Below are positions 4,276-21,426 of a stretch of 22,583 nucleotides of DNA, piece after piece. Position numbers and translations under genes: made by a program. The notes below the pieces were generated by a model, which was not told the origin of the DNA, ran no database searches, and worked only from the letters and a program-made list of their open reading frames with translations. The stretch lies in the IMG/VR virus record IMGVR_UViG_3300006033_000114, positions 1 through 22,583 of that record; one strand, written 5' to 3'. The stretch's first letter is position 1. The number at the start of each line of letters is the position of its first letter. The DNA is from a virus.

Positions 4276-4499
4276 TGAAAACGTCCGCCACCGAACGGGA
4301 GCAGGCGCTGCGTTGGCTGATTGCCAACCGGCGCCCAGACGTCTCTATCGAGCAGGCCGTGCGCGTGATGTGCACAGCGCTGCCCCGCGATCTCGCCACG
4401 ATGCAAATCCTGCAGCGCATCGCGGAGGAAGAAGAGGCCAAGCAACCCGACCAGCCATTCAACTGGCGCACACTTCCTGGTCTGCCGCCTCGCGGATAG
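4275..4499 (+). CDS. Unrecognised 74-aa protein
   Basis: A small, mostly helical protein (EREQALRWLIANRRPDVSIE, then a predicted helix ending in EEEEAK and a proline-rich tail). It starts at the TGATG overlap with the preceding gene, so it is likely expressed by coupling. It has no leader repeat of its own. Its last 41 nt overlap the 3' end of the minus-strand methyltransferase gene tail to tail. The family is not recognised. Coding support is the coupling, the open frame and sensible composition; it could be part of the same functional unit as the 120-aa protein. Confidence 0.6.
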   Translation: MKTSATEREQALRWLIANRRPDVSIEQAVRVMCTALPRDLATMQILQRIAEEEEAKQPDQPFNWRTLPGLPPRG

Positions 4500-5694
4500 C
4501 CGTCTGGCCGGTGAAGTCTTCCCACCGGCGCACGATGACATCCACGTACTTCGGATCGAGTTCGATCAGCCGCGCCGCACGCCCAGATTTCTCAGCGGCG
4601 ATCAGCGTCGTGCCAGAACCGCCGAAGGGATCGAGCACCACATTGCCCGGACGGCTCGAATTGCGGATCGCGCGCTCGACCAACTCCACCGGCTTCATCG
4701 TCGGGTGCAGATCGTTCTTCTGCGGCTTCTTGATATTCCACACATCGCCCTGATCGCGGTCACCGCACCAGTGGCGCTGCGCACCCTCGGGCCACCCGTA
4801 CAGAATCGGTTCGTACTGGCGCTGGTAGTCAGCACGTCCCAGCGTGAAGGTGTTCTTGGCCCAGATGACAAAGGTTGACCATTTGCCTCCGGCGGCGCGG
4901 AAGGCCGCCTGCAGCACATCCAATTCGCTGGACGACATCGCCACGTAGATCCCGCCCCGGCAATGCACGACGGTCGGCGTCAGCGCTGCCAGCAGGAAGT
5001 CGTAGAAGCCGTCGCCCAGGTTGTCGTTGAGGATCGCGCGATCCTTGCCGCGCATCTTGTCCTTCGCGCTGTTGGCGTAGTTCACGTTGTACGGCGGATC
5101 GGTGAAGACCATATCCGCCACTTCGCCTTGCATCAGCCGGCCATAGCTATCAGCCACGGTCGAGTCGCCACACAACAACCGGTGCGGGCCCATGATCCAG
5201 ACATCGCCCGAACGCGAGATCGGCGTTTCGCCAACCTCCGGCACCGCATCTTCGTCGGTCTGGCCATCGTTGTTGGGCTCGTCGCCTGCCAGCAGTTCGG
5301 CCAGTGCGTCGGCATCGAAGCCGGTCAGGTCGATGTCGAAGCCTTCGAGTTGCAAGGACTCCAGCTCGATGCGCAGCATCGCGTCATCCCAGCCTGCGTT
5401 CTCGGCAATCCGGTTGTCCGCGATGACCAGGGCCCGGCGTTGGGTCGGGCTCAAGTGATCGAGTACCACCACGGGCACGATCTCCAGCCCAAGTCTCTGC
5501 GCAGCGGCCAATCGCCCATGCCCGGCGACGATGATGCCGTCACTGCCTGCAAGGATCGGATTGGTGAAGCCAAACTCGGCAATCGATGCGGCGATCTGCG
5601 CCACCTGATCATCCGAGTGCGTCCGCGCGTTGCGGGCATAGGGCAGCAGTTTGGCTGTCGGCCACTGCTCAATCTTGTCGGCCAGCCAGTTCAT
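4459..5694 (-). CDS. ParB-like nuclease domain / DNA methyltransferase fusion (DPPY type)
   Basis: A predicted S-adenosylmethionine-dependent DNA methyltransferase of 411 aa. Residues about 10-100 form a ParB/Sulfiredoxin-like domain with the signature GHGR at 58-61 and a following ALVIADNRI segment. After an acidic linker (about 125-160) comes the N4/N6-methylase domain with catalytic motif IV TDPPY (198-202) and the AdoMet-binding motif FGGSGTT (357-363), in the beta-class order. DPPY is most typical of N6-adenine methylation. The C-terminal LIELDPKYVDVIVRRWE is usual for the family. The start overlaps the stop of a related upstream methylase by 4 nt (ATGA), so the two are one unit. In phages such enzymes protect DNA from restriction or mark it for packaging. 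No restriction endonuclease is adjacent. Confidence 0.93.
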   Translation of the reverse strand: MNWLADKIEQWPTAKLLPYARNARTHSDDQVAQIAASIAEFGFTNPILAGSDGIIVAGHGRLAAAQRLGLEIVPVVVLDHLSPTQRRALVIADNRIAENAGWDDAMLRIELESLQLEGFDIDLTGFDADALAELLAGDEPNNDGQTDEDAVPEVGETPISRSGDVWIMGPHRLLCGDSTVADSYGRLMQGEVADMVFTDPPYNVNYANSAKDKMRGKDRAILNDNLGDGFYDFLLAALTPTVVHCRGGIYVAMSSSELDVLQAAFRAAGGKWSTFVIWAKNTFTLGRADYQRQYEPILYGWPEGAQRHWCGDRDQGDVWNIKKPQKNDLHPTMKPVELVERAIRNSSRPGNVVLDPFGGSGTTLIAAEKSGRAARLIELDPKYVDVIVRRWEDFTGQTAIREAADQEVCAS

Positions 5695-7106
5695 GCCGCC
5701 ACCTCCATTTCGCGTTCAGTGGCGATCTCGTCGAAAGATTGGCCGGTGGCGATGAGCGTGACCGGAACGCCGGGGTGGTTTTGCTGAAAGCGCTTGATGG
5801 CCACGTCCACGTACTCTGGCGCAATCTCGACGCTGCGACAAATGCGGCCAGTGCGCTGCGCGGCCAGCATCGTCGTGCCACTGCCGCCGAACGGCTCGAA
5901 CACGATGTCTCCGGCATCGGTGTAGGACTCGATGGCGAACTCCGGCAACGCCACCGGGAAGACGGCGGGGTGATCAATGTCCTGACCGATCTTGCCCTTG
6001 TGGCGCATCACGCGAATCACTGAGTCGGGGATTCGGGTGTCCTGCGTCGGCTGACCCTTGTGCGTCCAGCCGCCGACCTCGCCATCCTTACCGCGCATCG
6101 CCGTGGACGACCCGTCAGCGCGCAGGTGCGATTCCTGGCCTGCGTGCTTGCAAGGAACAATCTTGTTGGGTTTGCGGGTGCTGCGATTGAAGTGGAAAAC
6201 GAACTCGAAGCTGGGAGCCAGTCGGCCCTGCCAGTCGCCGGGCATGCCTGGCCCCTGATCCCAGACATACCACGCAAAGCGCCGCCATCCCTGTTGGCGC
6301 ATCCATGACAGCCAGCCGTCCCAATAGGGGATGACTTCGTTGTCGCGGTGGATCAGACCGAGGTTGACCAGCACCTGTCCGTCATCGGCCATCGGCACGT
6401 TGCCGAATACGCCACGCATCAGAGCATCCCAATCGCCAATGCCACCGGAGGTGTAGTCGCGCTGGTTGCCATACGGCGGCGAGGTGAAGCAAAGCTGCGC
6501 GGTGTCACCCTGCATCAGAGTGGCAACCGCAGTCGGATCGGTGGCGTCGCCACAGAGCAGCCGGTGCAAGCCAATAGCCCAGACATCTCCGGGGCGAGTG
6601 ACCGGCACGGTGGGTGGCTGCGGCACATCATCATCATCAGCGGCGTCATCTGCCGTCTCGTCAGGATCTTCTGCCACCTCCGCCGCATCGTCCTCCAAGG
6701 CGGTAGAGAGCAGGCGCTCGAGTTCGCTGCTGTCGAAGCCAGTCAAGGCAAGTTCGTATCCCGATTCGGACAGTTCAGCGAGTTCGAGCGCCAGCATGGC
6801 TTCATCCCAACCGGCATCCAATGCCAGCCGGTTGTCAGCGATCACCAGCGCGCGCTTTTGCGCGACGGTCAGATGAGCCAGTTCGATCACCGGCACCTGA
6901 TCCAGCCCCAGCTTGCGGGCAGCCGCCAGACGCCCGTGGCCCGCAATGATGCCGTTGTCACCATCGACCAGGATCGGGTTCGTCCAGCCGTACTCGACGA
7001 TGCTGGCCGCGATCTTGGCGATCTGGCTTTCGGCGTGTGTGCGCGGATTGCGGGCGTAGGGAATCAGCGCCTCGACCTTGCGGTACTCGACGTTGAGCGT
7101 GTTCAA
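5691..7106 (-). CDS. ParB-like nuclease domain / DNA methyltransferase fusion (SPPY type)
   Basis: A 471-aa paralogue of the downstream enzyme with the same architecture: ParB-like domain at about 10-100 with GHGR at 56-59, a very acidic linker (about 138-165, with an ADDDD run), then a methylase domain with motif IV TSPPY at 208-212 and FGGSGTT at 406-412. SPPY is the form most often linked to N4-cytosine methylation, so the pair may make two different modifications. It is longer between the motifs than its partner. The start is TTG at 7106, since no ATG lies near the N-terminus and AGGA stands about 9 nt ahead. A strong terminator-like hairpin lies just upstream, so expression may need its own promoter or antitermination. 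Confidence 0.92.
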   Translation of the reverse strand: MNTLNVEYRKVEALIPYARNPRTHAESQIAKIAASIVEYGWTNPILVDGDNGIIAGHGRLAAARKLGLDQVPVIELAHLTVAQKRALVIADNRLALDAGWDEAMLALELAELSESGYELALTGFDSSELERLLSTALEDDAAEVAEDPDETADDAADDDDVPQPPTVPVTRPGDVWAIGLHRLLCGDATDPTAVATLMQGDTAQLCFTSPPYGNQRDYTSGGIGDWDALMRGVFGNVPMADDGQVLVNLGLIHRDNEVIPYWDGWLSWMRQQGWRRFAWYVWDQGPGMPGDWQGRLAPSFEFVFHFNRSTRKPNKIVPCKHAGQESHLRADGSSTAMRGKDGEVGGWTHKGQPTQDTRIPDSVIRVMRHKGKIGQDIDHPAVFPVALPEFAIESYTDAGDIVFEPFGGSGTTMLAAQRTGRICRSVEIAPEYVDVAIKRFQQNHPGVPVTLIATGQSFDEIATEREMEVAA

Positions 7107-8694: not shown

Positions 8695-10974
8695 TCAGTC
8701 ATCTCGGTAGGGGAAGCCATGGTTGTACGGCTTGGGTCTGAGGGCGATGCCCGCGATGCCGCGTGCGCCCCCGGTCAGCCGACATTTCTCGAACTTGCGG
8801 GTCGCCATCAGTTCGGAGAAACGCTTGATCGAGCCCACGTACTCGCCCGCGCGTTCGGCCCATTCACGCCAGTCGGCAAACAGTTCGGAGACGCCTTCGC
8901 GGTGAGACTTGGCCAGCAGGCAGCGCTCTTCGATCCATTGCCCGAGCGCGTCCTCGGCTTCGAAATACTCCTCGGTTGCCGACACCACGCTGGCGGGCGG
9001 CTTCAGACCCTGGCGTTGCCAAAGGCTGCAACCATCGACCGCCCACGCCAGAATGCCGTCCCGTTCCTTGAGCAGCTTCTCGGTCAGCCTGCCGTCACGC
9101 CGTTCGGGCGGGATCGTCACCGTGAAAGGGATCAGGTGCAGTCGCCGCTTCATCGCTTCGTCCACGTTGCGAATCGAGGGCTTGTGGTTGCCCGCGATCA
9201 CCAACTTGAACTGCGGCATGTACTCGAAGAAGTCCTGGCGCATGAAGCGCGCGGACACCTTGTCACCCCCGGTGATGGCCTTGACCTTGGATTCGTTCCA
9301 GCGCCGACCCTGCTCGGTTTCGATGGATGACACGAAACGTGCGCCGCGCAGGCCCGCCAGATCGGTCGGATGCCGGTCGGTGCGCGCCTCCATGAACGTG
9401 TCCATCGGCGCGTTGGCGGCGTAGTCGCCAAGGATCGTGGTCAGCACGTTGACGAACACCGACTTGCCGTTCGCGCCAGTGCCGTACAGGAAAAACAGCG
9501 CGTGCTCGCTGGTCACGCCTGTCAGGCAGTAGCCGACCATCAGTTGCAGGTAGGCCATCAGCTCGGCATCGCCGCCGGTGACGTCGGCCAGGAATGCGCG
9601 CCACGTCGGGCTGTCACCCTGCGGTGTGGCGGTGGCCACCTTGGTCATCCTGTCGTCGCGTCGGTGCGGGCGCATCCGGCCCGTGCGCAGATCGACCACG
9701 CCGCCCGGGGTGTTGAGCACCCAGACGTCGGCATCCCACTCTTCGGCAGTGGAGGCGTGCTTCGGATCGGAACGCGCGATTTTCTCGACCGAGGAGATCG
9801 TCGCCGAGCTGGCCAGCTTGCCCTTGAGCCGGGGGCTGTCCGCTTTGAGCGACGCCATCCGGCAGATGCCGCGTGAGAGGTGAGACACGTAGAGCACCTG
9901 ATCCGGATTCCAGCGCACGCCCGTCCAGACCAGCCACTTGCCCCACAGCGCGCAGTAGCGCCAGTCCTCACCGTAGCGGCGCGTGAAGGTCGAGGACAGA
10001 CCGTCTTCCGTCGTCCAATCGACGCCAGTCAGAAGATCGGGCGGCGGCGTTTCCTCGACCGAGCGCATCACTGGCATCCGTTCGCCGACAGCGAGGAAGC
10101 CTCCCACGTCGAAGCCCTCGGGGATGGCATCAGCTGCGTCCCAACCATCTGGCTTGTCGTCGGGCGGTACCAGGATGGCGACCGTGGTCGCGCCCGCATT
10201 CAGGATCGCCTGCGATGCGCGGTCGGCGTAATCCCAGCCCGGCGCATCCCGGTCAGGCCAGATCAGCACCGACTTGCCCGCCAGCGGCGACCAGTCGGTC
10301 TTGTCGACCGGGGCGTTCGCGCCGTGCATCGCCGTGGTGGCCGCCACGCCGATGGCGATCAAGGCCTGCGCGCATTTTTCGCCCTCGACCAACACGACGT
10401 GGCCAGCAGCAGCCAAGCCCGGCTGGTTGTACAGCGGGCGGGGATCTGGCGGAGCCATCTTGCGCCGCTTGGCATCCCACGGCCGGAATTCCTTCTTGCG
10501 GCCCGGAGGGTCATAGCGGTAGACGACGGCGATCAACTTGCCCGTGGCATCGAAGTAGTCCCACTTGGCAGTGGCCGGGCCAAGATCGTCGACCGGGGCT
10601 TCCATCTTGGCTTTGCGAACAGGCACTGACCGAGAGCGACCGAGCAGATCGGCAGCCTCGTCGAGCACACGAGGAAAGTCGGTGTGGATGTTGGCCTCGA
10701 GATAAGCCGCGATCAGCGCGAAGATATCGCCGCCGTCGCCCGTGGCGCGATCTGTCCACAGGCCCGCTTTCTCGCCTTCGAGCACGACTTCGAGGCTGTC
10801 ACCCGGACTGCCGAGAATGTCGCCAATGAGGAACTTGCCCCGGCGCTTCTTGCCTGCCGGAAACATCGTGGTCAGCACCGAGTCCATTCGTGCGATCAGT
10901 TCGGCGCGAATCTCGTCGCGCTGAGATTCCCGGTCGTGCTCCACAGTTTGAGTGGTGTCGTTGAAGTCGATCAT
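8695..10974 (-). CDS. Phage TOPRIM primase / SF3 helicase
   Basis: A 759-aa replication protein combining primer synthesis and DNA unwinding. The N-terminal third has a region resembling primase N-domains (GLWTDRATGDGGDIFALI at about 71-88) but without zinc cysteines. The TOPRIM domain follows, with LVEGEKCAQAL (EGEK at 197-200) and the acidic PDRDAPG at 240-246. The C-terminal half is a superfamily 3 / D5-like helicase: Walker A GTGANGKS at 498-505, a Walker B-like ARFVSSIETEQ at about 545-555, and the AGNHKPSIRN and KRRLHLIPF motifs, which include the arginine finger region. Length and order are usual for phage and P4-alpha-like primases. The start overlaps the upstream HTH gene by 4 nt (ATGA). 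Confidence 0.95.
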   Translation of the reverse strand: MIDFNDTTQTVEHDRESQRDEIRAELIARMDSVLTTMFPAGKKRRGKFLIGDILGSPGDSLEVVLEGEKAGLWTDRATGDGGDIFALIAAYLEANIHTDFPRVLDEAADLLGRSRSVPVRKAKMEAPVDDLGPATAKWDYFDATGKLIAVVYRYDPPGRKKEFRPWDAKRRKMAPPDPRPLYNQPGLAAAGHVVLVEGEKCAQALIAIGVAATTAMHGANAPVDKTDWSPLAGKSVLIWPDRDAPGWDYADRASQAILNAGATTVAILVPPDDKPDGWDAADAIPEGFDVGGFLAVGERMPVMRSVEETPPPDLLTGVDWTTEDGLSSTFTRRYGEDWRYCALWGKWLVWTGVRWNPDQVLYVSHLSRGICRMASLKADSPRLKGKLASSATISSVEKIARSDPKHASTAEEWDADVWVLNTPGGVVDLRTGRMRPHRRDDRMTKVATATPQGDSPTWRAFLADVTGGDAELMAYLQLMVGYCLTGVTSEHALFFLYGTGANGKSVFVNVLTTILGDYAANAPMDTFMEARTDRHPTDLAGLRGARFVSSIETEQGRRWNESKVKAITGGDKVSARFMRQDFFEYMPQFKLVIAGNHKPSIRNVDEAMKRRLHLIPFTVTIPPERRDGRLTEKLLKERDGILAWAVDGCSLWQRQGLKPPASVVSATEEYFEAEDALGQWIEERCLLAKSHREGVSELFADWREWAERAGEYVGSIKRFSELMATRKFEKCRLTGGARGIAGIALRPKPYNHGFPYRDD

Positions 10975-13938: not shown

Positions 13939-14784
13939 TTACTCCTTGGATTCGGTATGGGTTTGGGCGGCGGTGCCGGACGTGGAAGCGCTGCTGGCGC
14001 ACTTGGCGATCAGCGCGCCCAGATGCGGCGGCTCCAGCACGTCGAGGCGACCGCTGCGGTCTTTGGCGGGGAAGCCGTAGGGATTGACGGTGTGGGTGAC
14101 GAAGGCGCGATACGAACTGCCGTCATCGGCCTTGAGCTCGGCCAGCGTCACGACCTCGTCGACGATCCCGGGCAGCTCAAGGCTGGTCTTGCTGCCTTCG
14201 ATCTGCGGCACGAACACCTTGCGATTGAAGTCATCCAAGCGTTCGTCGAGGATCGCCACGAAGATCACGTTCTTGCCCCGGGCGTGCTGCAAGTGGGTCA
14301 AGGCACCGATCATTTCCTGCCCGAGCAGTCCGTAGGCCGTGCGCAGATCAGGCTTGCCGGAACGGTCGCTGACCGCACTAGGCTGGGCCTTGCACCAAGC
14401 GAAGCACTGGCGCGACAACTGCGTGATCGAGTCCAGGAAAAAGGTCTGGTAACGATCCAGTTGCGTGGTGTCGCCAAACTTCTCGATGACGTGGTCGTAG
14501 TGCGCCTGCGAAAACGCGCTCTCGGCAGGCAAGGACTTGTCCGGGCCGGCGAGGAACACGAAAAAGTCGCGGCTCTCCGGCCAGGATGCCGGACGGATGG
14601 TGTCGCCCGGCCAATCCGCCACGGACAGATCGCCCGCCTCAATGTCGAGGAACAGCGTCGTGGCGGGATCGAGGTCTTTGAGGCGGGTGGTTTTGCCGAT
14701 GCCGGATTTGCCCAGCAGCAAGAGCTTGACGCCCTTGCGTTCAGCCATGCGCTCGACGGCGGACACGATGGGGAGCTTTTTCAT
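13939..14784 (-). CDS. Sak4/RecA-like AAA ATPase (single-strand annealing recombinase)
   Basis: A 281-aa ATPase with Walker A GKSGIGKTT at residues 25-33, LFLDIEAGDLS at about 44-54, and Walker B FFLDSIT at 115-121. The order and spacing fit the short RecA-core ATPases (Sak4 type) used by phages for homologous recombination. The C-terminal part (VIFVAILDERLDDFN, then PGIVDEVVTL and a DRSGRLDVLEPP segment) is also usual for this family. The companion genes for a nuclease and a possible SSB support a recombination module. ATG 14784 is chosen because it overlaps the upstream stop (ATGA); the 402-aa frame extending upstream only reads out of frame through the preceding gene. Confidence 0.88.
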   Translation of the reverse strand: MKKLPIVSAVERMAERKGVKLLLLGKSGIGKTTRLKDLDPATTLFLDIEAGDLSVADWPGDTIRPASWPESRDFFVFLAGPDKSLPAESAFSQAHYDHVIEKFGDTTQLDRYQTFFLDSITQLSRQCFAWCKAQPSAVSDRSGKPDLRTAYGLLGQEMIGALTHLQHARGKNVIFVAILDERLDDFNRKVFVPQIEGSKTSLELPGIVDEVVTLAELKADDGSSYRAFVTHTVNPYGFPAKDRSGRLDVLEPPHLGALIAKCASSASTSGTAAQTHTESKE

Positions 14785-15274: not shown

Positions 15275-15538
15275 TTACTGGTATGCCCGAGCGAAGGTCG
15301 AGTAGCGCGAAACGCGCCGCTCGAAGGCTTCAACTTCGGAGATCAGGTAGGTGACACGGGCACCCAGCTTGCAGAAGACTGGGCCCAAGGACTCTTGCCG
15401 CCACCGGCGCAGAGTTTTGACGGAGAGCCCCCAGCGGGTAGCGAGCTCGTTTTCATCGATGGCGATGCGCGTGGCACCGTCTCGAATGTTCCGGCGGTGT
15501 GGCCGACCGGATTCAACTGATGGGACTTGGTTTTGCAT
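15275..15538 (-). CDS. Helix-turn-helix protein at the head of the replication operon
   Basis: An 87-aa protein. Residues about 27-75 (IDENELATRWGLSVKTLRRW, then GPVFCKLGARVTYLISEVEA) match the MerR/excisionase-like winged helix used by AlpA-type regulators: a short HTH followed by a strand pair and a 'Y.i.evE.f' helix. It is the first gene of the leftward early operon, so it may control early transcription or serve as an excision factor. Upstream lie an inverted repeat around the ribosome site and three TTTATGG direct repeats that could be its operators. AAGGAGG stands about 10 nt before ATG 15538. Confidence 0.82.
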   Translation of the reverse strand: MQNQVPSVESGRPHRRNIRDGATRIAIDENELATRWGLSVKTLRRWRQESLGPVFCKLGARVTYLISEVEAFERRVSRYSTFARAYQ

Positions 15539-15540
15539 TT

Positions 15541-15572
15541 CGATGTGCCTCCTTTATGAAATGGGCACATCG
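15541..15572. promoter_or_regulatory. Inverted repeat flanking the ribosome-binding site of the HTH gene
   Basis: CGATGTGCC (15541-15549) and GGCACATCG (15564-15572) form a perfect 9-bp inverted repeat. In the leftward mRNA the hairpin would hold part of the AAGGAGG ribosome site in stem and loop, just before ATG 15538. It could hide the site until opened, or be a protein-binding dyad. Confidence 0.6.
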
Positions 15573-15584
15573 AAGTTTCCGCAT

Positions 15585-15630
15585 GGATTTATGGGCGGTG
15601 TCTGGTTCCGTTTATGGTCGGATTTATGGG
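15585..15630 (-). promoter_or_regulatory. Three CCATAAA direct repeats upstream of the early operon
   Basis: Read on the minus strand, CCATAAATCC occurs at 15585-15595 and 15620-15630 (with one more C) and CCATAAACGG at 15608-15617. Offsets of the shared core are 23 and 12 bp, close to two and one helical turns. The rightmost copy overlaps the stop codon of the 310-aa gene. This looks like an array of operator sites for a regulator of the early operon. Confidence 0.55.
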
Positions 15631-16556
15631 TTGCGGCGCACTCGGTAACGCGCACGTCGCGCTTTTTCAATCACATCTCCTCGATCCTCGGGGCCGCCGA
15701 AAGCGTCGTCGAATGACTGATAGCCGGTGTTGGCCAGCCCGTTGACCTCTGCCCACGACATTTCCGGTGGTGCCTTTCCTACTTCGCCCCACATCACCTT
15801 GATGATCTTTGCGCGCTCGGGAGCGAGCTCGCGTGACGTGACGAAATGCGGCAATTTCAAGCGGTCGCCCTGAAGGAATTGGGCTGGCTCGGGGATGCCA
15901 TTGATCGTCAAGAATCCACGCAAAACCCGGTCGAACGCGCTCGCGTCGAAAACGTCCTCCCCGCCTTCCACGCGAACGAAATCGTTCAGGCTGCGCAAAA
16001 CATGATCACGAGGCAGACTGTCGCTGCTCGGTCGATGCCGAAGGAGCACACCACCGCGAGGCCAGACCGGATCGCACAGCACTGGCGTCGTTTCTGCGGC
16101 CGGTGCGCGCTCCCATAAACGTCCGACGAACACCGGCGCGAAATCGTGGGTGCCAGCGATTCGCGCATTACCGAGGTGCCAGAGGTGATCGGGTACCCGG
16201 GTACGCTGTTGCGATAGCTGTCGTGGCTCGATGCCGATCAGACTGCACAGATCGGTGAGCCACGTATCAATGCGCAACGTGTAAAGCACGATGTCAGAGA
16301 GCGGGCGCGTGACGATTTGAGATCGCTGTTGGGGGCTCCGGTACCGGAACACGCCAGCGTCCTCGTCAATATCGGCCTCGACCTCTTCCTCCGAATCGAG
16401 GAAAGGCACCATCACACGAGTCAAGTAGCCATCCTCAACCACCCACCGGCGGCGAACAAATTCGGCGCGGTGGTGGCCGACGGTGGAGGAAATTGCGCGC
16501 GGCTCAACGCTGCGCACGCGCTCAATGGTGTTGAAATATTCCAAATACGCAGACAT
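15624..16556 (-). CDS. Unrecognised 310-aa protein, second gene of a two-gene cargo operon
   Basis: I do not recognise this family. The N-terminal part is beta- and charge-rich (HHRAEFVRRRWVVEDGYLTR, then VPFLDSEEEVEADIDEDAG), the middle has TLRIDTWLTDLCSLIGIEP and a conserved-looking DPVWPRGGVLLRHRPSS segment, and the C-terminus is basic with GKAPPEMSWAEVNGL and KARRARYRVRRNP. The basic tail hints at nucleic acid contact. No membrane segment, signal or enzyme motif is evident. It lies 10 nt downstream of the 478-aa gene with GAGGAG ahead of ATG 16556, so the two are almost surely co-expressed. Placed between the replication operon and the repressor, it is best seen as lysogeny-expressed cargo. 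Defence, exclusion or regulatory roles are all open. Confidence 0.75.
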   Translation of the reverse strand: MSAYLEYFNTIERVRSVEPRAISSTVGHHRAEFVRRRWVVEDGYLTRVMVPFLDSEEEVEADIDEDAGVFRYRSPQQRSQIVTRPLSDIVLYTLRIDTWLTDLCSLIGIEPRQLSQQRTRVPDHLWHLGNARIAGTHDFAPVFVGRLWERAPAAETTPVLCDPVWPRGGVLLRHRPSSDSLPRDHVLRSLNDFVRVEGGEDVFDASAFDRVLRGFLTINGIPEPAQFLQGDRLKLPHFVTSRELAPERAKIIKVMWGEVGKAPPEMSWAEVNGLANTGYQSFDDAFGGPEDRGDVIEKARRARYRVRRNP

Positions 16557-16566
16557 GGCGTGCTCC

Positions 16567-18003
16567 TCAGAATTCACACAAGACGCCGAGCCGCGCCAAT
16601 TGCTCGATCACGCGCTTGCGGTCATCCTCGGTCTTGCTCTTGTCGTTCAGGCCATTGGGCGACGTAATCTGGACGGCCACGTTATGGGCTTTGCGGTGCG
16701 GTTGCTTTGCCATCCGGAAAACCAGCTTCACCTGTGACAAGGCATAACCGGTCAGATCATCCAATCCGTAGTCGTCATAGGCGACTTGGTAGATGTGACG
16801 GGCATCGCGCCGATCCCGACCAATCATCAGCGTGCTCGACAGGTGCTGGACAATGTCGCGCCCGTTGGCTTCGTCGATGGTGCTCTGCTCGAAGGGGCGC
16901 GCGATCTTCACTTGCAGGATCGAGATTTTCTCCACGCCGTCGACGAGATGCTGTTCAAGGCGCTTGAGCATGGCGTGCGTCGAAAAACCCAGCAGATCGA
17001 ATTCACGCATTGGCATGTCGTTGATCGCCCCCTCGCAGGCCAGCACGACATCACGGAAGATGGTAGCCAGGTCACGGCGCGACTCCTTGTCCTCGCAGAA
17101 CACGCCAAGCGCACCCGTGCCAGGCTCCCACGAGAAGATGGCCGACATGGCTGCTGGTTCTTCGTGGTCAATCACTTCACCGTCGGCGACTTGTTTGAAA
17201 TGCGCCGTCGAACCATTGAAGGTTGCAGTGAGCGTATGTAACAGCACTGGCGTCGAGTCGTCTGCGTCCTCCCCGCCACAGCGATCCGCATGAGCAAGGT
17301 CGCGGCGCGTGAATTGCTCGATGAGAATCTGGTCGGCGGCCACCTTCGGATAGAGGGCTGCGATCCGGGTGCGCAGCACATCCTGCACGTCGACGTCGAC
17401 CTTGGGCTCGATGCCTTTTGGCCCGAGGTAATGGCTGGAGAAGTTTTCACTCTTCCACTGCCGATGCATCACTTGCAGGCGCTCGGCGTGCTCGAAGCGG
17501 TGTTCGGCCTTGACGCCGTCCGATGGAAATTCCTGGAGGAGATGCAGGTGCAGCGCGCGGCTGTACCTGTCGGTTGGCGCAACGAGTACCGCCGCGTCGC
17601 CCTCATTTTTTTCCTCGAGCAAGGACTGGACGGCCTGCGCACCGTACTCATCGTCCAGCAGCACCACCAGTTCAGCCGCACGCTCGATGCGCTGCTGTTT
17701 ATCGGGCATGAGTTTGGCCACAACGTGAAACATGGCCTTACGCGCCGGAATCGGCAGCACACCCTTTGCGACCTCAACCAGCGCCGCGATTTCAGGCAGC
17801 GTGGTGTCGGCGGCACGCTCGACCAAGGTCAAGATGAGCGCCGGTCGCTTTACCTTGCGCGCCAGGGTGACGAAATGCTCCATGCAAGGGAGGACATCGG
17901 GGCCATCGTCCGATTGCCGGTTGCGCACTTTCTTTGATGTCTGCTGATCTGCAGCCGACTCTTTTTGATTTGCGATGTTGTTTTGTTCGACTGCCGTCAT
18001 CAT
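16567..18003 (-). CDS. Unrecognised 478-aa protein, first gene of a two-gene cargo operon
   Basis: I do not recognise this family. The first 35 residues are hydrophilic and probably disordered. A helical region follows (LILTLVERAADTTLPEIAAL, then KLMPDKQQRIERAAELVVLL). The middle contains SENFSSHYLGPKGIEPK and an acidic stretch with CGGEDADDSTP; the second half has MSAIFSWEPGTGALGVFCED and a long helical part. The C-terminus reads HNVAVQITSPNGLNDKSK followed by RKRVIEQLARLGVLCEF. No Walker motif, HxxxE pair or transmembrane segment is obvious. ATG 18003 follows AAAGGA. It starts after a terminator behind ImmA, so it has its own promoter region, which shares sequence with the XRE operator region. 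It may be regulated by the XRE protein. Confidence 0.78.
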   Translation of the reverse strand: MMTAVEQNNIANQKESAADQQTSKKVRNRQSDDGPDVLPCMEHFVTLARKVKRPALILTLVERAADTTLPEIAALVEVAKGVLPIPARKAMFHVVAKLMPDKQQRIERAAELVVLLDDEYGAQAVQSLLEEKNEGDAAVLVAPTDRYSRALHLHLLQEFPSDGVKAEHRFEHAERLQVMHRQWKSENFSSHYLGPKGIEPKVDVDVQDVLRTRIAALYPKVAADQILIEQFTRRDLAHADRCGGEDADDSTPVLLHTLTATFNGSTAHFKQVADGEVIDHEEPAAMSAIFSWEPGTGALGVFCEDKESRRDLATIFRDVVLACEGAINDMPMREFDLLGFSTHAMLKRLEQHLVDGVEKISILQVKIARPFEQSTIDEANGRDIVQHLSSTLMIGRDRRDARHIYQVAYDDYGLDDLTGYALSQVKLVFRMAKQPHRKAHNVAVQITSPNGLNDKSKTEDDRKRVIEQLARLGVLCEF

Positions 18004-18029: not shown

Positions 18030-18060
18030 CGATTGCGCGAACAGTTAATTACTGGTTTCA
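18030..18060 (-). promoter_or_regulatory. Probable control region of the 478/310-aa operon
   Basis: The short gap 18004-18058 holds a dyad CAGT-TAATT-ACTG (18042-18054) and CGCGCAATC read on the minus strand (plus-strand GATTGCG at 18031-18037). The TAATT and CGCAATC elements also occur together in the XRE operator region. No convincing -35/-10 pair could be fixed, although TTGAAA overlaps the preceding terminator tail. Confidence 0.45.
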
Positions 18061-18083
18061 AAAAATGCCGACACGAAGTCGGC
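18060..18083 (-). terminator. Intrinsic terminator after the ImmA gene
   Basis: GCCGAC (18067-18072), a 5-nt loop and GTCGGC (18078-18083) form a perfect 6-bp stem. On the minus strand it is followed by A and then six Ts (plus-strand A run 18060-18065). It lies 20 nt after the ImmA stop and separates the XRE-ImmA unit from the 478/310-aa operon. Confidence 0.85.
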
Positions 18084-18102: not shown

Positions 18103-18936
18103 TCAAGCGATACCTGCCCCCGGTGTCAGAAGGCCGTAACGTTCCATCCGAACCTGGATGAATCGCCGGTGAACGCCGAAGCGTTTTGCCAAGGCCCTCT
18201 GCAAACACTCCATGTCGAAGAAGCCAATGTCACCATCGGCGGTCAGCCGCATCGTGGTGCCGGGCAGCTCCGGATCTAGAGACGGGCTACGGTGGATCGT
18301 CACACCGTGCTTCGGTGCCAGTGTCTCTACCGCGCGGTACAAATGCTGTCGCGGCACAAGCAGTGACCCCATGAATTCGTTGGCGCGCAGCTCGGCAAAA
18401 TGGACATTGCGCACAAGCTCACTGTTACGTGCTGCGCTCGGCTCTGGCTGTTTTGCCAAGTGCTCGGCGTCACGAGTCGTGGTGCGGTATGCCTTGCGTG
18501 CCAGCTCGGCGGGATCGTCAAACAGGCCGGGGCCTTGAGCAGCGGCGGCAATCCAGCTCGGCGCATCAAAAATGGCGTGGCCAAGCTCGTGGGCAAAGGT
18601 ACTGAGCACCAGCTCTTCGGATGCCGTTTCGCTGACAGGCGAGACGGACAGCATGGTGGCATCCGGTGATGCCTCGGGATCAAACTCGCAAACACCTAAT
18701 ACCGGATTTCCCTGCTCGTCGTTGACGGCGTGCTCGGTGTCTACCCACAGGGCGAACTGGATGCCGTTAATTTTCAGGCTACTGATGTCGCGCAACACAG
18801 ACAGCGAGATGGCGTCGGTGTTGGCATCAACCAGTTGCTGGCGAGCCAGCACTGCAATGCCTTCGACTTCAGAATGTTTGATGTAGCGAGGGAGTTTCCG
18901 GTCACAGCACCGGTAGGCGAGAGTTAACTCCGGCAT
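18103..18936 (-). CDS. ImmA/IrrE family metallopeptidase
   Basis: A 277-aa zinc peptidase of the family that cleaves phage- or ICE-type repressors after DNA damage (ImmA acting on ImmR in ICEBs1; IrrE acting on DdrO in Deinococcus). The zinc site is HELGH at residues 116-120 (FAHELGHAIF), and the downstream AELRANEFMGSLLVPR at about 181-196 supplies the third ligand, probably E182. The C-terminal 80 residues (RFGVHRRFIQVRMERYGLL) match the accessory part of these proteins. It follows the XRE gene directly (stop TGA abuts ATG), the classic repressor-antirepressor pairing. It probably releases repression of this prophage; it might also act on the operator shared with the neighbouring cargo operon. 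Confidence 0.92.
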   Translation of the reverse strand: MPELTLAYRCCDRKLPRYIKHSEVEGIAVLARQQLVDANTDAISLSVLRDISSLKINGIQFALWVDTEHAVNDEQGNPVLGVCEFDPEASPDATMLSVSPVSETASEELVLSTFAHELGHAIFDAPSWIAAAAQGPGLFDDPAELARKAYRTTTRDAEHLAKQPEPSAARNSELVRNVHFAELRANEFMGSLLVPRQHLYRAVETLAPKHGVTIHRSPSLDPELPGTTMRLTADGDIGFFDMECLQRALAKRFGVHRRFIQVRMERYGLLTPGAGIA

Positions 18937-19215
18937 TCATTTCTCTCCCGTCGCGCGTTTGCGATACATCCGAACGATATCGCCCACGTCCTCTCGCATG
19001 TCCGGCGGGAGTCGACTAGCTTCGATGAACGCCTCATCGGGGTTCTCACCAAGAATTTCTGCAGCTTTGCGGATCAGTTCGTCCTTGGGCGGCTTTTCCA
19101 TCTCGCGCTCAATGCGCGACCAATAGGCCGGTGAGATGTCGAGTTGGCGCGCAAAGTCATTCATCGCGATGCCCTTCGCGTCTCGTTTTTGCCTGATGTA
19201 GGTTCCGAAACCCAT
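18937..19215 (-). CDS. XRE-family repressor
   Basis: A 92-aa DNA-binding protein. The helix-turn-helix domain covers about residues 5-60: YIRQKRDAKGIAMNDFARQL, then DISPAYWSRIERE as turn and recognition helix, followed by RKAAEILGENPDE. The C-terminal tail (PPDMREDVGDIVRMYRKR) is the short helical arm often seen on ImmR-type regulators and is the likely cleavage target of the adjacent metallopeptidase. It has a clear sigma70-type promoter and two inverted repeats upstream, which points to autorepression. It is transcribed away from the integration module, so it stands at the centre of the lysogeny control region. Confidence 0.92.
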   Translation of the reverse strand: MGFGTYIRQKRDAKGIAMNDFARQLDISPAYWSRIEREMEKPPKDELIRKAAEILGENPDEAFIEASRLPPDMREDVGDIVRMYRKRATGEK

Positions 19216-19227
19216 AATGTGACCCAG

Positions 19228-19252
19228 TTGCGTGATTGGTTAATTGACGCAA
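19228..19252. promoter_or_regulatory. Operator-like inverted repeat overlapping the XRE promoter -10
   Basis: TTGCGT (19228-19233) and ACGCAA (19247-19252) form a 6-bp inverted repeat with a 13-nt spacer that includes TTAATT. It reaches into the -10 box of the XRE promoter, a suitable place for autorepression. The TTGCG half-site recurs in the palindrome at 19295-19312. Confidence 0.55.
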
Positions 19253-19280
19253 TCATAACGACAGCAATCGCCGCCGTCAA
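19252..19280 (-). promoter_or_regulatory. Sigma70-type promoter for the XRE-ImmA operon
   Basis: On the minus strand, TTGACG (plus positions 19275-19280) and TATGAT (19252-19257) are separated by exactly 17 nt. This gives a 5' UTR of about 30 nt before ATG 19215. It is the best-matched promoter in the window. Confidence 0.8.
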
Positions 19281-19409: not shown

Positions 19410-19601
19410 ATGAAGAACCTCGAACTTGCATCTCCCTCGGAGATGAGCGCCAGCGCCCGTGCTGGTGAAATCACTACCATCCTTGCGGCAGCCATCGTTC
19501 GCACACTTGTCGCCAACGAGCCGAAACAGAGAGAAGTTGGCCTTGGCTTCCTGCCCGACCAGCGCGTTCATACAACCCCCTATCAACAGGAGAAGTTGTG
19601 A
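19410..19601 (+). CDS. 63-aa protein at the head of the integration module
   Basis: A short protein beginning KNLELASPSEMSASARAGEI, continuing with a helical hydrophobic part (TTILAAAIVRTLVANEP), and ending LGFLPDQRVHTTPYQQEKL, which is encoded by leader repeat copy E. ATG 19410 has GGAG about 7 nt upstream. Its stop overlaps the start of the DUF2924 gene (TGATG), so it probably couples translation into the recombinase operon. Similar small proteins seem to stand before DUF2924-recombinase pairs, but I cannot name a family. The hydrophobic stretch is too short and charged for a confident membrane segment. Confidence 0.65.
   Translation: MKNLELASPSEMSASARAGEITTILAAAIVRTLVANEPKQREVGLGFLPDQRVHTTPYQQEKL
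19542..19600 (+). repeat. Leader repeat copy E, upstream of DUF2924
   Basis: CTTGGCTTC at 19542-19550 and AGCGCGTT at 19561-19568, again with a 10-nt gap, 32 nt before ATG 19601. It is about 15.7 kb from copy D and on the same strand. It lies inside the 3' end of the 63-aa gene, so here the element is translated. Confidence 0.8.
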
Positions 19602-20046
19602 TGAACGAGAAACAAGCATCTGTCGCTGCGCGCATTGCCGAACTGGCTTGCATGCCGATGTCTGAACTCTGGACGGTGTGGGATCGATATTTCCCTCGCC
19701 GCCCGGACTACCCGAACCGCACGCACGTCGAGTCGCGCCTCGCCTACAAGCTGCAAGAGGAAGCCTTCGGCGGCCTCGCGCCCGAGACGAAGCTGCGACT
19801 GGAATCCATTGGCGCGAAGCATTCCAAGATCAAGCTGCGCGCCAAGCGACGCGAGTTCGATTTCGCGCCGGGCACGATCTTGTTGCGCGAATGGGGTGAG
19901 CGCGAGCATCAGGTGTCGGTCACCGCCGAGGGCCGTTTCGAGTACGAGGGCCACACTTTCAAAAGCCTGACGGCGGTGGCCCGACATATCACTGGCCAGC
20001 ATTGGAGTGGGCCGCTGTTCTTCGGCCTGATCACAGGTGGTGCGCG

Positions 20047-20050
<4 letters not shown>
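19601..20050 (+). CDS. DUF2924 protein, partner of the serine recombinase
   Basis: A 149-aa protein of the DUF2924 family, nearly always encoded just before a serine recombinase in proteobacterial elements. Recognisable features are ELWTVWDRYFPRRPDYPN, the SRLAYKLQEEAFGGL helix, and the C-terminal PGTILLREWGEREHQVSV / FEYEGHTFKSLTAVARHITG / HWSGPLFFGL segments, which resemble a small DNA-binding (LAGLIDADG-unrelated) beta-alpha domain. The function is not established; a role in recombination synapsis or control is plausible. ATG 19601 is preferred over GTG 19598 because AGGAG lies about 9 nt ahead. The stop overlaps the recombinase start (ATGA). Confidence 0.92.

Positions 20051-21425
<1,375 letters not shown>

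Positions 21426-21426
<1 letters not shown>

Follow-up and report, generated by a model that had tools for sequence, protein, structure and literature searches.

The window analysed here is a virus record of 22,583 bases from IMG/VR, in which two genes of the minus strand, A and B, encode proteins of 478 and 310 aa. On this strand, the genes follow each other in the order XRE repressor, ImmA-like gene, terminator, A, B, AlpA-like gene, a 160-aa gene, AAA_24, recombination and replication genes, and D5_N/DUF5906. The XRE-family repressor (92 aa, 18937–19215, minus) matches HTH_3 (E 9e-9), and the ImmA/IrrE-like metalloprotease (277 aa, 18103–18936, minus) carries a HELGH motif and matches Peptidase_M78 slightly below the curated cut-off (E 5e-4). 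An HTH repressor followed by an M78 metalloprotease is the layout of an XRE-ImmA lysogeny switch, which is present here beside A-B. Further downstream on the minus strand are the AlpA-like gene (HTH_17/MerR-like, 87 aa, 15275–15538), the AAA_24 ATPase of the recombination/replication block (13939–14784) and a helicase-primase-like protein of 759 aa with D5_N and DUF5906 domains (8695–10974). A divergent serine recombinase is encoded on the plus strand (20002–21426). Just 5′ of it lies the gene of a DUF2924 protein (19598–20050, plus; E 7.8e-48), a counterpart of which seems to recur in the remote loci described below. In addition, two adjacent proteins of 411 and 471 aa (4459–7106, minus) resemble, judging from their translations, ParB-type N-terminal domains fused to DNA methyltransferases.

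Gene A (16567–18003, minus) starts with ATG and is conserved in relatives. After a gap of 10 nt it is followed by gene B (15624–16556 from its ATG, minus), for which an alternative GTG start 21 nt upstream (16577) would give a product of 317 aa. The coordinates of this pair (15624–18003), the two protein lengths and the terminator had been given correctly by the sequence-only reading. Its view that neither protein belongs to a recognisable family was borne out by profile and sequence searches, which returned no family match for A or B in Pfam, PHROGs, NCBIfam, PADLOC or the PDB sequences. PADLOC assigned no defence family to either protein at E values up to 1, and wider profile searches gave nothing usable. 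By tblastn, A had no match among the INPHARED phages, and neither A nor B had one among the PLSDB plasmids. Among the papers listed in literature searches, no apparent earlier description of such a phage module turned up. The pair, which the same reading had put forward as a candidate for an undescribed protein system, is genuinely undescribed.

Searches with A recovered relatives from 26 bacterial-genome loci and from about 50 IMG/VR contigs; together with the dN/dS values of A and B against their relatives (0.04–0.19, purifying selection), this identifies both as real genes. In about 75 fetched phages and prophages, A and B are core genes in constant order, and the arrangement of an integrase and XRE-ImmA-A-B-AlpA, the 160-aa gene and AAA is common to nearly all loci from bacterial genomes and viral contigs. 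The same order is kept in distant phages with approximately 45% identity in A and 33% in B. Remote A-B pairs are present in other Pseudomonadota genomes, as neighbours in unchanged order wherever the sequence covers both genes, and profile comparison supports their kinship over nearly the full length (99.8% probability for A and 99.7% for B). The pair does travel as a unit, as had been anticipated. Among the remote pairs, recA-, umuC- or dinB-, and lexA-like genes adjoin A-B in L245, L248 and L249, as judged by eye from translations, which suggests SOS links. In one locus (L175), a natural deletion between ImmA and the end of B has removed A together with the first half of B but left the repeats described below and AlpA in place. 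In another (L070:4998–9524), the first 369 residues of an A relative continue into an open frame of 1508 residues, a possible fusion or chimeric contig.

Across 54 loci, the identities of A and B covary with r of 0.95; the corresponding values with XRE, ImmA and AlpA are 0.51–0.78, and the correlation of A/B identity with exonuclease identity is weak (0.29/0.23). For example, L007 and L165 share 97% identity in the integrase and 93% in the AAA protein, but their A proteins are 44% and their B proteins 32% identical. By this pattern of divergence, A-B is part of a fast-diverging XRE-ImmA-A-B-AlpA immunity block. Two phages (L124 and L125) retain XRE, A, B, AlpA and the D5 helicase, whereas the ImmA, AAA, DUF669-like and exonuclease genes were undetected in them.

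Between ImmA and A lies an intrinsic terminator, a hairpin followed by a T-run (GCCGAC-TTCGT-GTCGGC-ATTTTTT; 18067–18083, minus; RNA fold z −2.9). It is present in almost all relatives inspected. The sequence-only reading was right in placing the pair beside the lysogeny switch and behind a terminator. The minus strand has no terminator-like site in the gap before the AlpA-like gene, so the proposal that A and B form an operon of their own is unproven on the 3′ side; transcription may continue from B into the AlpA-like and replication genes. A conserved TTAAC-N3-TCACGCAAT-like site was found in the XRE promoter region and is repeated between the terminator and A. The putative XRE operator pair of the window consists of TTAACNNNTCRCGCAAT sites, namely TTAACCAATCACGCAAC (19227–19243, minus), 3′ of the −10 element of the XRE promoter, and TTAACTGTTCGCGCAAT (18032–18048, minus), upstream of A. 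The XRE promoter itself is sigma-70-like (TTGACG, 17 nt, TATGAT; 19252–19280, minus) and conserved in relatives. In the window and in nine larger phage records, the operator pattern occurs exactly twice per record, at the XRE promoter and 5′ of A. XRE probably binds both sites, and their distribution points to repressor-controlled early expression of A-B. Given the operator copy before A and the lack of a terminator after B, A-B look like the first genes of a repressor-controlled early transcript. Because no consensus promoter was recognised 5′ of A, the control of A-B, alongside XRE-ImmA, by XRE is something that we infer.

Immediately 5′ of the AlpA-like gene, four direct repeats (CCATAAA/CCATAAA/CCAGACA/CCATAAA; 15588–15629, minus) form an array that occurs once per phage record. 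In the window, the 5′ ends of the repeats are at 15629, 15617, 15605 and 15594, giving a spacing of 12-12-11 bp, and the first repeat overlaps the stop codon of B. A four-repeat array of this 12-12-11 geometry was detected in 57 of the 65 distinct B-AlpA regions, far above dinucleotide shuffles; in most regions its score was reached by none of 200 shuffles. Among 216 spacings, 12-12-11 was the best, scoring 2220 against a mean of 1298 (sd 180). The repeat sequence differs between phages and falls into at least four classes (CCATAAA, CCGTA, TCCGGA and CTGCCAA), which follow the type of the B C-terminus: T1 goes with CCATAAA, T2 with CCGTA/TCCGGA, T3 with TCCGGA and T4 (L108) with CTGCCAA. No mismatched combination of B type and repeat was observed in any case with an array, and each array is single-copy per phage and confined to phages of the matching type. 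Exceptions consist of a missing array and never of one of the wrong type; for instance, L002 and L022 have unrelated sequence 3′ of B, and no clear four-repeat array was seen in L142, L163 and L176. Locus L018, of Extensimonas vulgaris DSM 100911, has an intact array. L002, L022 and L073 are truncated or rearranged prophages, in which the unrelated sequence replaces both iterons and AlpA and the end of B is altered. The remote A-B pairs possess longer arrays of 11–12 bp repeats 3′ of B (CTCCTCAGT, CTCCTACC, TCCTCACCAG and AACTACCCT), several of which sit on both sides of an AT-rich stretch. Iteron replication origins are likewise composed of repeats beside an AT-rich stretch.

Between the array and the AlpA-like gene, a hairpin formed by CGATGTGCC...GGCACATCG (15541–15572, minus) surrounds the Shine-Dalgarno sequence of this gene; the whole B-AlpA gap has a fold z of −4.15. 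The stem varies on both sides in relatives, with GATGTGCC/GGCACATC, with GAGGTGCC/GGCACCTC in L142 and with GCAGTGC/GCACTGC in L165, and the T3 stem is displaced by one base in the alignment. The hairpin possibly serves translational control of the AlpA-like gene.

The match between B type and repeat class is accompanied by natural swaps. The window (T1) and L027 (T2) diverge strongly in a single block, 15900–15600, which comprises the C-terminal codons of B and the repeats; elsewhere, from XRE to the end of the N-terminal part of B, identity per 60 bases is at least 77% and mostly above 90%. At the protein level, the two B proteins are 93% identical in the N-terminal and 48% in the C-terminal part, and this drop delimits the exchangeable part of the C-terminal domain (about residues 225–310, type T1 in the window; 15624–15884, minus). 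A, XRE and AlpA are nearly unchanged, and the helicase is equally distant (87–88%) from T1 and T2 relatives; B is therefore the sole neighbouring protein that changes with the repeats in this comparison. Similar swaps from T1 to T3, with other boundaries, separate L049 from L017 and L057 from L067. In L067, the exchanged block extends from near codon 50 of B to the AlpA start, and most of the sequence on either side is more than 90% identical. The three swaps may not all be fully independent of one another. Since the C-terminal codons of B are at most tens of bases away from the iterons, linkage alone could hold domain and repeats together; against pure linkage, the exchanged block stops at the array or immediately after it in two of the three swaps (the third extends to the AlpA start), and all four repeat sequences keep the same spacing. 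Because the repeats match the C-terminal type and are exchanged with it in three domain-and-repeat swaps, B very likely binds the iterons and probably does so through its C-terminal domain. An AlphaFold model of this domain has the pattern helix-helix-helix-strand-strand, which is winged-helix-like. The fold search of the PDB with B gave no significant match, nor was B related to known initiators by Pfam, PHROG or PDB fold matches. The protein has no membrane segment, its highest 19-residue hydropathy being 1.19.

For A, the model (pLDDT 79, pTM 0.46) predicts a helical N-terminal domain (about 34–185) and a beta-rich C-terminal part (about 190–478). In the PDB, the best fold match is E. coli RdgC (E 1.7e-3, prob 0.97), followed by CENP-N and Iml3, and the top-ranking matches in the viral structure library include several phage RdgC proteins (E about 2e-4, prob about 1.0); in these searches the TM-scores were low, at 0.2–0.3, with a model pTM of 0.46. 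Matches to SAMHD1 and DH/PH folds were scattered, with TM of about 0.1, and were dropped. The comparison of A with the RdgC family PF04381 gave no Pfam match, and hhalign against 15 RdgC sequences gave a probability of 0.03%. RexA, RdgC, Iml3 and Chl4 have a common fold, and RexA and RdgC bind DNA, as reported with the structure of lambda RexA (PMC11077077). According to the model, A may have a fold of this RdgC/RexA/CENP-N type; in view of the low TM-scores and the failed profile comparison, the shared fold is a possibility, and membership in the RdgC family is unsupported.

Starting from what is read directly from the sequences, namely the conservation, the operator-like sites, the iteron geometry and its match to the B type, and the swap blocks, we propose that the repressor controls A-B as an early module whose task is to start phage DNA replication, with B as the origin-binding initiator and the origin in the B-AlpA gap, and we give this reading a probability of about one half. 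In the lysogen, XRE bound to the operator before A would keep A-B and the downstream genes off. Upon induction, ImmA would presumably remove XRE, and A and B would be made first. Through its winged-helix-like C-terminal domain, B would bind the four iterons that close its own gene, with each repeat taken by one domain, and the B-bound iterons would mark the phage origin in the B-AlpA gap, where the D5-type helicase-primase encoded downstream would then load. A, as a predicted DNA-binding protein of the RdgC/RexA fold, would join B at the nucleoprotein complex or shield the complex from RecA; this role is tentative. More speculatively still, a winged-helix iteron reader and a DNA clamp of the RdgC/CENP-N fold might make up one undescribed origin complex, whose type phages would switch by swapping the reading domain together with its repeats, perhaps escaping interference by resident prophages or satellites.

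The four-repeat array itself is somewhat better explained as an origin than as a transcription operator. Were B instead a transcriptional or translational regulator, the array would be the operator of an AlpA-led recombination/replication operon and A a cofactor, with no origin involved. We judge this rather unlikely, even though the array lies about 50 bp before the AlpA-like gene, is followed by the hairpin around its Shine-Dalgarno sequence and falls within the rapidly diverging XRE-ImmA-A-B-AlpA block, as would be expected of a regulatory circuit. The B-AlpA gap has no promoter-like site, the repeats are 12-bp direct repeats instead of dyads, and there is one array per phage and no regulon, while in the remote pairs numerous repeats surround AT-rich DNA. 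An origin initiator is favoured over a transcription regulator because the remote arrays flank AT-rich DNA, because the B-AlpA gap is promoterless and because of the parallel with lambda, where four iterons lie inside the initiator gene O (PMC7466680). The persistence of A, B, AlpA, XRE and the D5 helicase in L124 and L125 also speaks for an origin. In the window, no AT-rich stretch suited to unwinding stands out clearly in the B-AlpA gap, and the GC skew gave no clear origin signal.

Other functions for the pair appear less probable. The fold matches of A to E. coli and phage RdgC, and the recA-, umuC-, dinB- and lexA-like genes noticed by eye beside remote pairs, would fit a recombination module in which A is an RdgC-like DNA coat holding host RecA in check while induction or recombination takes place and B targets A to phage DNA. 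This is improbable: the RdgC profile comparison was null, the divergence of A-B does not track that of the recombination genes, as the exonuclease correlations indicate, and the pair is kept where such genes are undetected. The sequence-only reading had favoured cargo expressed in the lysogen, such as a defence or exclusion system. The position beside the repressor agrees with a Rex-like exclusion or other defence system, and the sole point in favour of an exclusion-like role is the predicted fold of A, common to lambda RexA and RdgC. Against such a role speak the probable repressor operator before A, the terminator separating A-B from the repressor transcript, the lack of a RexB-type membrane segment in B and the null result with PADLOC, and we hold it to be very improbable. 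A-B belongs to the core genes of its relatives and keeps a constant position there, unlike variable cargo, and B goes together with an iteron array that opens the replication genes; replication start or early control is a more likely function than defence. Finally, in TubR-type plasmid segregation systems a winged helix reads short direct repeats, and A has CENP-N/Iml3 fold matches, so that A-B and the iterons might be conceived as a centromere-like partition or incompatibility complex. That is scarcely to be expected, since no ATPase or tubulin-like motor directly adjoins A-B, the phage has a serine integrase and relatives are found in bacterial chromosome contigs.

If the replication-start module is real, a function would be assigned to two families that are absent from Pfam, PHROGs and NCBIfam and are core to a large, widespread and undescribed family of temperate phages, itself without a relative in the phage collection searched. 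The swaps provide a ready-made specificity experiment on the residues with which B recognises each repeat, and on whether the compatibility of prophages depends on origin type. An RdgC/RexA-fold protein at a phage origin would moreover link the exclusion, recombination and replication proteins of that fold.

Among known systems, RdgC of E. coli gives the best fold match of A in the PDB, and phage RdgC proteins rank near the top in the viral library; A differs by an additional helical domain of about 150 residues at its N-terminus, a fixed partner B and the lack of profile similarity. Lambda RexA/RexB are likewise a two-gene unit beside the repressor, and RexA has an RdgC-type fold; in contrast, A-B lies behind a terminator and a second operator-like site, A is much longer, and B, which has no membrane segment, carries a winged-helix-like domain. 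RexA was not among the best 50 fold matches of A. The inner kinetochore proteins CENP-N/Chl4 and CENP-L/Iml3 match the fold of A weakly (prob up to 0.93), but these eukaryotic proteins have no sequence relation to A and the fold alone is common. Known initiators differ from B, which has no detectable kinship with them in sequence or fold; unlike lambda O and plasmid Rep proteins, B has its DNA-reading domain at the C-terminus and is paired with A, and the repeats of A-B phages are short and spaced at 12-12-11 bp, compared to iterons of about 19 bp. With lambda O/ori-lambda and the plasmid Rep/iteron origins, however, the module has in common a protein whose gene contains or ends in a repeat array, and with lambda also the four direct repeats, the early operon behind the repressor region and the helicase gene downstream.
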